Origin: Nitrososphaerota archaeon
GTDB taxonomy: Archaea; Thermoproteota; Nitrososphaeria; Nitrososphaerales; Nitrosopumilaceae
NCBI GenBank assembly: GCA_021325615.1
Contig: JAJPGU010000027.1
Location: 1-46,724 of the forward strand
DNA: 46,724 nucleotides
Direction of reading: 5' to 3'
Position 1 is the stretch's first letter. Each line of letters starts with the position of its first letter. The notes beneath the pieces are model-generated. The model worked only from the letters and a program-made list of their open reading frames with translations. It was not told the DNA's origin and did no database searches. Made by a program: the position numbers and the translations under genes. Shown piece after piece: positions 9,721 to 12,428 of the stretch.

Positions 9721-9890
9721 TGCCTGCCTCCTTTGTACTTGCGCATGCTTTCAATGGGCACCTTGGATCCACCCCCTCATGGCAAAACTATAGCGTATCG
9801 CTTTGATAAAATATGGTCTGTCACATCTCCTGACAGACTGCCATACTTTTCAGCAGGGATTTGGAACGCGTCTCCGAGCTTCCCCTTAAC

Positions 9891-9903
9891 CTTTATTAAA
9901 AAT
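9891..9903 (+). promoter_or_regulatory. TATA-like box of purE
   Basis: CTTTATTAAAAAT is centred about 26 bases before the GTG at 9922. It supports that GTG as the true purE start and argues against the in-frame open stretch upstream being coding. Confidence 0.6.
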
Positions 9904-9921
9904 CCGATATTGCATAGACAT

Positions 9922-10494
9922 GTGGCGTACTCAAAAAAGGCACTCGTCGGGATAATCATGGGTTCAAGTTCAGACAGCAAGGTAATGCACGCAGCTGCTG
10001 AGATACTGGACGAGTTCGGGGTAAAGCACGAGGACCAGATAGTTTCAGCACACAGGACTCCCACCAGGCTTGAAGACTATGCCAAGCATGCTGAAAGGGA
10101 AGGCTTCAAGGTAATCATCGCAGGAGCAGGAGGCTCGGCGCACCTGCCCGGAATGATTGCCTCGCACACAATAATCCCGGTAATAGGCGTCCCAATCATG
10201 GTTTACAACGACAAGGGCGGGCAGGACAAATTCAAGTTCTCGGCATTTGGAGGCCTCGACTCGCTCCTCTCAATTTCCGAGATGCCCACCGGCTCTCCGG
10301 TGGTTACTGTTGGTGTCAACAAGGCAGCCAATGCAGGACTTTATGCATTGAAGATCCTAGCAAACGAGCATCCAGACCTAAGGAGGAGGCTCAAGGGATA
10401 CAAGGTGGAGCAGCACAGGTCTGTCATGAAAGAGTCCGAGGAGATGCGAAGGCTCGGCCTTGCAAGGTTTGCAACAAAAAGATTCAAAAAGTGA
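9922..10494 (+). CDS. purE: N5-CAIR mutase PurE
   Basis: PurE moves the carboxyl group of N5-CAIR to give CAIR, the step after PurK. From GTG 9922 the product is 190 aa, close to the usual length. It contains the substrate loop 'GIIMGSSSDSKVM', the catalytic-His motif 'SAHRTP' (H44) and the 'AGAGGSAHLPGMIASHT' loop, then 'PVIGVP'. The frame is open back to 9733, but the extra residues do not look like PurE and would place the TATA-like box inside the gene. The C-terminal 30 residues are basic. The stop is one base from the convergent cyclase gene. Confidence 0.95.
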   Translation: MAYSKKALVGIIMGSSSDSKVMHAAAEILDEFGVKHEDQIVSAHRTPTRLEDYAKHAEREGFKVIIAGAGGSAHLPGMIASHTIIPVIGVPIMVYNDKGGQDKFKFSAFGGLDSLLSISEMPTGSPVVTVGVNKAANAGLYALKILANEHPDLRRRLKGYKVEQHRSVMKESEEMRRLGLARFATKRFKK

Positions 10495-10495
10495 C

Positions 10496-11773
10496 CTAGG
10501 CCTTGAGGTCCGATATCTGTACAAGGTGTCGTGAAAAGTAAATCGGGTATACGGCGCCAGTGGCAGGGTGAGTATAGTTCCACCTCTTGTCATCAGGGTT
10601 TATCTTGGTAAACTGCTCCGCAAACTCCCTTGGAAGCATCTGGTAAACCGAATCGCCGATGGTGGTCTGGTTTGGCTGTGCAAGCGGAAGAATCTTTGAT
10701 ACAATTGTAATGCTGTGCCCAATCAGGTCCGGCTCGGATCCGAGGAAAACTATCCTGTTCTTCCCAGCGTCCACCCCAATCCTGACGCTTATGGTTGGAA
10801 GGCCCAGGCTTGAGAATATTGGGTTGAGCGAGTACTTTATCAGCATGTTCATCGAGTTTGCGCACCTTATGGCATTTTCAGCCATGTTGCCAAACTCCTC
10901 AAGTTCTGGAAAGAAGGCAATCACGGCATCGCCTGCATATTTTAGGACAAACCCGGCATGCTTGGATACAATCACAGACATTTCTTCTGAGAAGACCTTG
11001 ATGAGTCCTGAGAGCTCCTCGGAGCTTAGCAGGGTGGCAAGCTTGGTAGACCCCACTATATCCACGTAAAGTATCGCGACGTTGATCTCCTGCTCGGGCC
11101 AGAGGCTCAGGAACCTGCTTGCAACATACTTGAGGAAGGCCTGCGAGTATGAATCAGACATCTTCATCTTGTACAGTGAGAAATTCCTCTTGACCCTCGT
11201 CATGCTTTCTATCACGACCGAGTCATCCGCAGAGAGTATCTGGAACCGCTCTATTGGCTTTACATGGTATATTATGGATTCAAGCACGTTGAGCGGAACG
11301 AACTTTTTCTCGAGGATGTCATAGTAGCCCTTCTCGCCCTCTATTTGTGGCGGGGCAACCTTGAGGTTCTCAGTTGCAAAGCCAAACGGGAAGGAGGTGT
11401 TCTGGTTCTTTGCCGCAGTGAGTATCACGCTGTCATACTCGTTGAGCGCCAGCGCCTGTTCGTTTTCCACCCCGGACCCAATGTCAATGACCCGGGATAC
11501 CTGAAAAATTGTGATTTTGCCCGTCTTTGAGTTGGATTTTAAAATTTCTACCACGTCGTTTTCAATGTTGTCTGGCACGGTAATCTGTACGAGGTACTTG
11601 TCCTGAAACTCCGACCTGTACATCTCGGTGCCCTTTGCTGCGTGTACCTTTGATCCTACTCCTTTTCCCCTCCCCTTTACCTTGGCTATGTTTACCGAAA
11701 CGTCGATTATCCTTAACGCATCGCTTACGGACATCAGGTCGTTTCTTGGAACCTCTGCCTCAATCCTTATCAT
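10496..11773 (-). CDS. PII-like domain fused to class III nucleotidyl cyclase
   Basis: The 425-aa protein has two recognisable halves. Residues 1 to about 110 follow the PII (GlnB/GlnK) plan: 'MIRIEAEVP..', 'AKVKGRGKGVG' leading into a T-loop with 'TEMYRSEF', then 'YLVQITVPDNIENDVVEIL', 'TGKITIF' and a final 'ALNEYD'. Residues about 225-400 are a class III cyclase catalytic domain: 'YVDIVGST' (first metal Asp), 'LKYAGDAVIAFF' (Lys and second metal Asp) and 'RIGVDAG'. In the transition-state motif the usual N-x3-R reads T-x3-K ('GHSITIVSK'). It may sense energy or nitrogen state and make, or only bind, a nucleotide. No membrane segment is seen. Domain calls are by eye. Confidence 0.8.
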   Translation of the reverse strand: MIRIEAEVPRNDLMSVSDALRIIDVSVNIAKVKGRGKGVGSKVHAAKGTEMYRSEFQDKYLVQITVPDNIENDVVEILKSNSKTGKITIFQVSRVIDIGSGVENEQALALNEYDSVILTAAKNQNTSFPFGFATENLKVAPPQIEGEKGYYDILEKKFVPLNVLESIIYHVKPIERFQILSADDSVVIESMTRVKRNFSLYKMKMSDSYSQAFLKYVASRFLSLWPEQEINVAILYVDIVGSTKLATLLSSEELSGLIKVFSEEMSVIVSKHAGFVLKYAGDAVIAFFPELEEFGNMAENAIRCANSMNMLIKYSLNPIFSSLGLPTISVRIGVDAGKNRIVFLGSEPDLIGHSITIVSKILPLAQPNQTTIGDSVYQMLPREFAEQFTKINPDDKRWNYTHPATGAVYPIYFSRHLVQISDLKA

Positions 11774-11885: not shown

Positions 11886-12428
11886 TTGGAGATAAAGGAC
11901 ATACTGTACCAGGCAATTTCCGAGTACGAGGAGAAGAGGATAGTTTCGGACATAGCTCAGGGCGAGAGTGCTGAAGCAATCAGTACAATTTTCAGCCACT
12001 GCATGAAGAACATGAGAGAGGTAGGCTCGGACACCCCAGAAATGCGCAGTGCCCTTGCCGAGGGCCTCACACATTACATGCTGACCGTGGCCCTGATACC
12101 AAGCCAGAGAAAGACCACCTTTGGCTCGGTCGAGATCGACGTCGCCGTGCCTGACGCAAGGACACTCTCACTCACCCCGGATGATGTGGTTGTAATCCAT
12201 TTTTCAAAAACCGACAACCTTTCTGAGATAAAGGAACATCTTGAAAGGCTCAAGAAGATCCAGCCCAGGACCGAGAACATCTGGGTGGTAGTAGACAAGC
12301 CAGTTGCTGTCGATGCCAAGGTCTACGCTCTCTCAGATGGCCAGTTCACCTTTGCAAACATGATAAACGACCTGATAAGCTTTTCATCAGGGAAAAAGCA
12401 ATCAAAGCTCAAGATTTTCAGGATATAA
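11886..12428 (+). CDS. Conserved-looking hypothetical protein
   Basis: The 180-aa soluble protein starts at TTG 11886, about 27 bases after a TATA-like GATTTAATTA. The N-terminal 70 residues are helical. The second half alternates strands and helices ('FGSVEIDVAVPDARTL', 'DDVVVIHFSK', 'RTENIWVVVD'). The order E-x-D strand followed by a strand ending in a basic residue loosely resembles a PD-(D/E)xK nuclease core, but this is only a guess. Its 3' end overlaps the bioD 3' end by 11 bases tail-to-tail. I do not recognise the family. Confidence 0.7.
   Translation: MEIKDILYQAISEYEEKRIVSDIAQGESAEAISTIFSHCMKNMREVGSDTPEMRSALAEGLTHYMLTVALIPSQRKTTFGSVEIDVAVPDARTLSLTPDDVVVIHFSKTDNLSEIKEHLERLKKIQPRTENIWVVVDKPVAVDAKVYALSDGQFTFANMINDLISFSSGKKQSKLKIFRI

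Follow-up and report, generated by a model that had tools for sequence, protein, structure and literature searches.

Does an archaeal gene join a PII protein directly to a nucleotide cyclase, and what could such a protein connect in the cell? The question was raised by one gene in the window, i.e., the whole stretch of 46,724 nucleotides that was analysed. The preliminary description took the host for an ammonia oxidiser, in agreement with the Amt/GlnK context and with the record titles of the genomes that carry the gene, which are Candidatus Nitrosotalea and unclassified Thaumarchaeota/Nitrosopumilaceae MAGs. A PII-guanylate cyclase fusion of Nitrosotalea (A0A2H1FDM3_9ARCH), evidently of the same protein family, genus and architecture as the window protein, was mentioned by Gerhardt et al. 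2020 in a single sentence (PMC7646526). The join was thus already in print in 2020 and is no first sighting. Gerhardt et al. 2020 considered a possible c-di-GMP control and gave no analysis of residues, origin, distribution or partners (PMC7646526).

Fusion gene, locus and distribution

One open reading frame on the minus strand (10496-11773) encodes a protein of 425 amino acids in three segments: a PII-fold domain (residues 1 to about 109), a conserved connector of about 110 residues and a class III cyclase domain (residues 229-391). The features of the locus are:

10496..11773, minus strand: fusion gene, 425 aa, ATG at 11773, stop at 10496; uninterrupted in orthologues
11447..11773, minus strand: PII-like domain, residues 1-109, beta-alpha-beta-beta-alpha-beta (PF00543, PDB profile search, AlphaFold2 and Foldseek)
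11090..11446, minus strand: linker (residues 110-122) and conserved connector MID (residues 123-228), also present in PII-less cyclases of related archaea
10601..11089, minus strand: class III cyclase homology domain, residues 229-391 (PF00211, Foldseek to CyaC)
9733..10494, plus strand: purE-like gene (AIR carboxylase), convergent neighbour (Pfam; synteny conserved)
11886..12428, plus strand: ORF180, divergent neighbour (synteny conserved)

Twenty orthologues aligned to the window protein with 70-93 % identity presented an uninterrupted single frame, and the gene context, purE on one side and ORF180 with bioD on the other, was conserved among them. For each segment, i.e., PII, connector and cyclase, dN/dS lay at about 0.02-0.09 where dS was measurable; all three are under strong purifying selection. 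Uninterrupted orthologues, conserved synteny and purifying selection exclude chance or misassembly as the source of the join, and the direct fusion described earlier is real. No operon partner was found next to the gene, with purE convergent and ORF180 divergent, and neither amt nor glnK adjoins it. ORF180 (11886-12428, plus strand) had zero Pfam matches. A sigma-70 promoter scan was set aside as uninformative for an archaeal host. In Candidatus Nitrosotalea sp. TS the fusion gene lies in two frames (L010:3453-4708), a sequencing error or decay.

The N-terminal domain gave a borderline Pfam result: PF00543 matched residues 1-98 with 23.9 bits in the protein scan (cut-off 25) and with 28.1 bits in the genome search, and 20 of the 21 fusion orthologues matched at E<=0.01. 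A profile built from the domain and its relatives retrieved PII chains from the PDB at E 4e-22. The AlphaFold2 model had a mean pLDDT of 85.6 for residues 1-112 and of 78.7 for the whole protein; the best Foldseek match of residues 1-112 was GlnK1 (7p52, E 1.6e-9, TM 0.82). In the predicted monomer the N-terminal domain is a PII fold, as had been proposed from the letters of the sequence. The connector MID matched no Pfam family.

Intact fusions were present in 23 of the 37 genomes of Nitrosotalea, the genus of the window and one of ammonia-oxidising archaea from acid soils. Full-length alignments among 400 genomes of the class yielded 22 of these genomes, all Nitrosotalea, while the 23rd (G404) emerged from a GlnK search of all 37 genus genomes, in which a frame of 431 aa had a PII match. 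A profile search of 398 phylum genomes located the fusion in no further genus (1 of 163 genera), and short peptides of the protein, compared with 84,980 species genomes, had matches in the Nitrosotalea group only. A second PII fusion, seemingly present as a 490-aa open frame in G029, was rejected: the PII ends after 114 residues and is a free PII behind amt.

The cyclase domain

The class III cyclase expected in the C-terminal half was confirmed by PF00211 (Guanylate_cyc), which matched residues 229-387 with 36.2 bits (cut-off 21.9) and also matched all 21 fusion orthologues, and by the model of this half, whose top Foldseek match was CyaC (2bw7, E 2.7e-12, TM normalised to the target 0.82). 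With CyaC of Spirulina (1wc0-1wc6, 2bw7), a class III adenylyl cyclase, the domain shares the fold, both metal aspartates and the purine lysine, but it has a Thr/Lys pair in place of Asn/Arg and follows a different regulatory N-terminus. The catalytic positions in the alignment of 21 sequences are:

11060..11062, minus strand: D238, first metal Asp, invariant
10940..10942, minus strand: K278, ATP-specifying Lys, invariant
10928..10930, minus strand: D282, second metal Asp, invariant
10727..10729, minus strand: D349, ATP-specifying Asp, invariant
10706..10708, minus strand: T356, position of the transition-state Asn, Thr in 20 sequences and Ser in one
10694..10696, minus strand: K360, position of the transition-state Arg, Lys throughout the aligned cyclases of related archaea

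The roles of the ATP-specifying Lys and Asp in class III cyclases have been described, and the Asn/Arg pair is usual, not universal; Ma1120 of Mycobacterium avium is an active cyclase in which Ala replaces the Asn (PMC4215837). An activity on ATP is plausible, because the metal aspartates and the ATP-specifying residues are invariant and Ma1120 is active without the Asn. The Arg-to-Lys change at K360 may count against a catalytic reading. Both substitutions are old: Lys is common to the related archaeal cyclases and Thr or Ser occupies the Asn place in nearly all connector-cyclases, thus the Thr/Lys pair predates the fusion.

Alternatively, the domain may be a non-catalytic nucleotide-binding regulator, whose ATP occupancy serves as output or input, with the PII part as a subunit of a GlnK/Amt complex. 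The replacement of the Asn/Arg pair in all 21 sequences would suit such a role, as would the presence of 6yii, a class III cyclase-like ATP-binding protein, among the structural matches. A search of the own genome (G000, 96 % complete) for CRP-type cNMP receptors revealed no PF00027 match over the cut-off, a further point in its favour. The same genome has six PF00211 matches over the cut-off, hence another receptor exists or some of the domains are non-catalytic. However, the metal and ATP-specifying residues stayed invariant across strongly diverged orthologues, Ma1120 does without the Asn (PMC4215837), and receptors other than CRP are possible. We consider a non-catalytic regulator unlikely.

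Effector site and T-loop of the PII-like domain

Residues of the fused PII were compared in the 21 fusion sequences, with the numbering of E. coli GlnB. Two regions are of importance:

11513..11524, minus strand: site of the missing B-loop core, TGKI, residues 84-87 (GlnB residues 84-88 deleted, K90 kept)
11600..11668, minus strand: T-loop, residues 36-58, with the core 43-58 (VHAAKGTEMYRSEFQD), 75 % invariant across the 21 sequences

The B-loop TGxxGDGKIF is absent, with GlnB residues 84-88 deleted in 21 of 21 sequences. Also in every sequence the C-loop arginines are replaced (R101 by D, R103 by G/S) and Q39 has become G, T or F. The position of K58 is a Lys in 20 of the 21 domains, and K90 is kept as well. 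Further changes are T29N with loss of the preceding Gly-Gly, E62Q/H, V64T and F92T/S; positions 29, 62 and 64 are adenine contacts in GlnB. Archaeal GlnK proteins with a full effector site (Archaeoglobus GlnK3, Methanocaldococcus GlnK1) have the same fold with a TM of about 0.8. In GlnK3, which binds MgATP and 2-oxoglutarate, Q39 is a Mg ligand, K58 contacts 2-oxoglutarate, and the B-loop and two basic C-loop residues bind the nucleotide (PMC3198391); the fused domain lacks the B-loop and Q39. The idea of a canonical PII sensor, with ATP/ADP and 2-oxoglutarate as ligands and direct gating of the cyclase, could draw on the true PII fold of the model and on the retained K58 and K90 positions. 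However, the B-loop, the basic C-loop residues and Q39, which make up the nucleotide, Mg and 2-oxoglutarate site in GlnK3 (PMC3198391), are affected by the deleted B-loop core and by the changes at 101, 103 and 39; T29N, E62Q and V64T come in addition. Such a sensor is improbable, and the ATP/ADP and 2-oxoglutarate sensing attributed to the fused PII in the preliminary description was not upheld.

Among the free PIIs of the own genome, GlnK_A is nearest to the fused domain (50 % identity); it belongs to a tandem pair that is divergent from an ammonium transporter gene. Free Amt-linked GlnKs have likewise the B-loop deletion, Asp at position 101 and no Q39, thus these losses predate the fusion. 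Such GlnKs (the Nitrosotalea pair and the Nitrosopumilaceae GlnK) share the missing B-loop core and a similar T-loop with the fused domain, but are free-standing proteins of 109 aa, in Nitrosotalea encoded next to amt, and they retain T29 and F92, both replaced in the fused domain. At L058:17049-17756 and L092-L106, the free GlnKs of the lineage have no B-loop core and carry Asp at 101. A third PII type of the genus (L059:9362-9697, L150, L151) keeps the B-loop GDGKIF, yet has Asp/Gly at 101/103.

The T-loop was preserved. Its core has 12 of 16 residues invariant versus 33 of 93 in the remaining PII domain (Fisher p 0.005), i.e., an invariant share of 75 %, whereas residues 1-35 reach 40 % and residues 59-109 reach 37 %. 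Identity to the Amt-linked GlnK_A was 60 % in the T-loop versus 43 % in the rest of the fused domain; against other PIIs the T-loop had 23 % identity and the rest of the domain 34 %. From the loss of the canonical ATP/2-oxoglutarate site and the retention of the T-loop we infer that the fused PII is a contact module rather than a canonical sensor. Some ligand could still bind, because K90 and K58 of the nucleotide/2-oxoglutarate site remain.

SbtB, a PII-like protein, binds cAMP, and altered loops can allow PII-like proteins to bind other nucleotides. By analogy, the PII-like domain might bind the product of its own cyclase, cAMP or AMP, as a feedback, and the remodelled pocket of a PII domain that adjoins a cyclase would be in line with that. 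The same B-loop loss in free GlnKs without a cyclase argues against it, and we regard this feedback as very improbable. Class III cyclases make 3',5'-cNMP, and Pfam identified PF00211 and PF00543 only, with PF00211 as the sole catalytic domain and no GGDEF or EAL in the fusion protein. The control of c-di-GMP suggested in print by analogy with Azospirillum GlnZ (PMC7646526) is therefore scarcely credible.

Origin and proposed link to ammonium transport

In the PII tree, which had 109 columns and a weak deeper order, the fused PII domains formed one clade (100/99) within the thaumarchaeal GlnK group (100/97) to which the Amt-linked GlnKs belong; PIIs whose B-loop is complete were placed apart from this group. 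The stem of the fused PII is long (0.65), thus the domain changed fast after the fusion. The fused cyclases formed one clade as well (100/99), sister to PII-less connector-cyclases of Nitrosotalea (96/89). A single fusion event explains both trees: in a Nitrosotalea ancestor a duplicated GlnK_A-like copy would have been joined N-terminally to a pre-existing connector-cyclase gene.

In Nitrososphaeria, a PII-less MID-cyclase is paired with a KaiC/GvpD-like ATPase gene. These cyclases share the connector and the cyclase domain with the fusion protein (48-52 % identity within the genus), but have no PII domain and stand alongside an ATPase gene of about 470 aa that is absent from the fusion locus. 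At L061:9530-11835, L062-L066, L072 and L073 the PII-less connector-cyclase was followed, mostly directly, by the gene for the KaiC/GvpD-like ATPase of about 470-480 aa. The pair occurs in two or more families of ammonia-oxidising archaea and looks like a signalling unit.

Co-occurrence was counted in the 19 genus genomes with at least 90 % completeness. The fusion, the GlnK pair and an Amt1-type transporter were present together in 15 of 15 fusion genomes, and in the four fusion-less genomes (G097, G106, G116, G125) GlnK pair and Amt1-type transporter were absent in 4 of 4; these keep only an Amt of about 47 % identity. The CDC48 tree revealed at least four independent co-absences (G097; G106; G125 with G400; G116 with G403), none opposing and one undecided; a sign test on the four pairs gave p 0.125, the best value attainable with four pairs. 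The incomplete genome G235 was discordant with a GlnK and without the fusion. In four genomes (G097, G116, G125, G393) purE and ORF180 lie side by side without the fusion; because the flanking genes adjoin, its absence there is real. A PII-less MID-cyclase within the glnK-glnK-amt cluster of the relative G129 was downgraded as proof of a link to amt, since MID-cyclase and glnK-amt cluster are about 130 kb apart in G139, and G116 and G393 keep the MID-cyclase without glnK. Ca. Nitrosotalea devanaterra was reported to have three Amts, two of low and one of high affinity, with PII genes in the vicinity of Amts, and all AOA genomes were said to hold two or more Amts (PMC4836417). At odds with this, the near-complete genomes G097, G106, G116 and G125 had one Amt match and no Amt-linked GlnK.

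The proposed link to nitrogen thus stood in part: an indirect connection to ammonium is indicated by the descent from an Amt-linked GlnK, the T-loop similarity and the co-occurrence with glnK-glnK-amt, but not the ATP/ADP/2-oxoglutarate sensing by PII. We tentatively favour, with not quite an even chance, a signalling cyclase built once, in which a GlnK-derived contact module ties the cyclase to the Amt1/GlnK system with cAMP as output. The conserved T-loop would dock on the low-affinity transporter Amt1 or another GlnK partner, and/or the fused PII would form mixed trimers with the two free GlnKs. The ammonium/GlnK status would be passed via the connector to the cyclase dimer, where T-loop docking on Amt1, or GlnK exchange, may set distance and pairing of the cyclase domains, and the dimer would make cAMP from ATP. 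In this model we infer that Amt or GlnK is contacted, in which direction control runs, that the product is cAMP and how the protein assembles. PII proteins are trimers and class III cyclases dimers; thus the assembly would be a hexamer or mixed trimers with free GlnKs. In a more specific version, which is rather doubtful, the PII without ligand site would serve for contact alone and, by entering GlnK trimers or docking on an ammonium transporter, recruit and gate the cyclase. If true, a second-messenger output would be wired directly to ammonium transport in an ammonia oxidiser, with a receptor that is probably not of the CRP type, as none of that type was found.

Compared with the open-licence PMC texts, the new findings are the loss of the effector site, the T-loop pattern, the origin from one event, the presence/absence pattern with glnK-glnK-amt and the pairing of the ancestral PII-less cyclase with a KaiC/GvpD-like ATPase. 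For ammonia-oxidising archaea, ammonium is fuel and nitrogen source, and their ammonium sensing is poorly known. The textbook ATP/2-oxoglutarate motifs are missing from the Amt-linked GlnKs of this lineage, and it may therefore be wrong to regard these proteins, by analogy, as canonical GlnK/GlnB regulators. A GlnK-type domain welded to a cyclase and kept together with glnK-glnK-amt is a defined, testable entry point to ammonium sensing.
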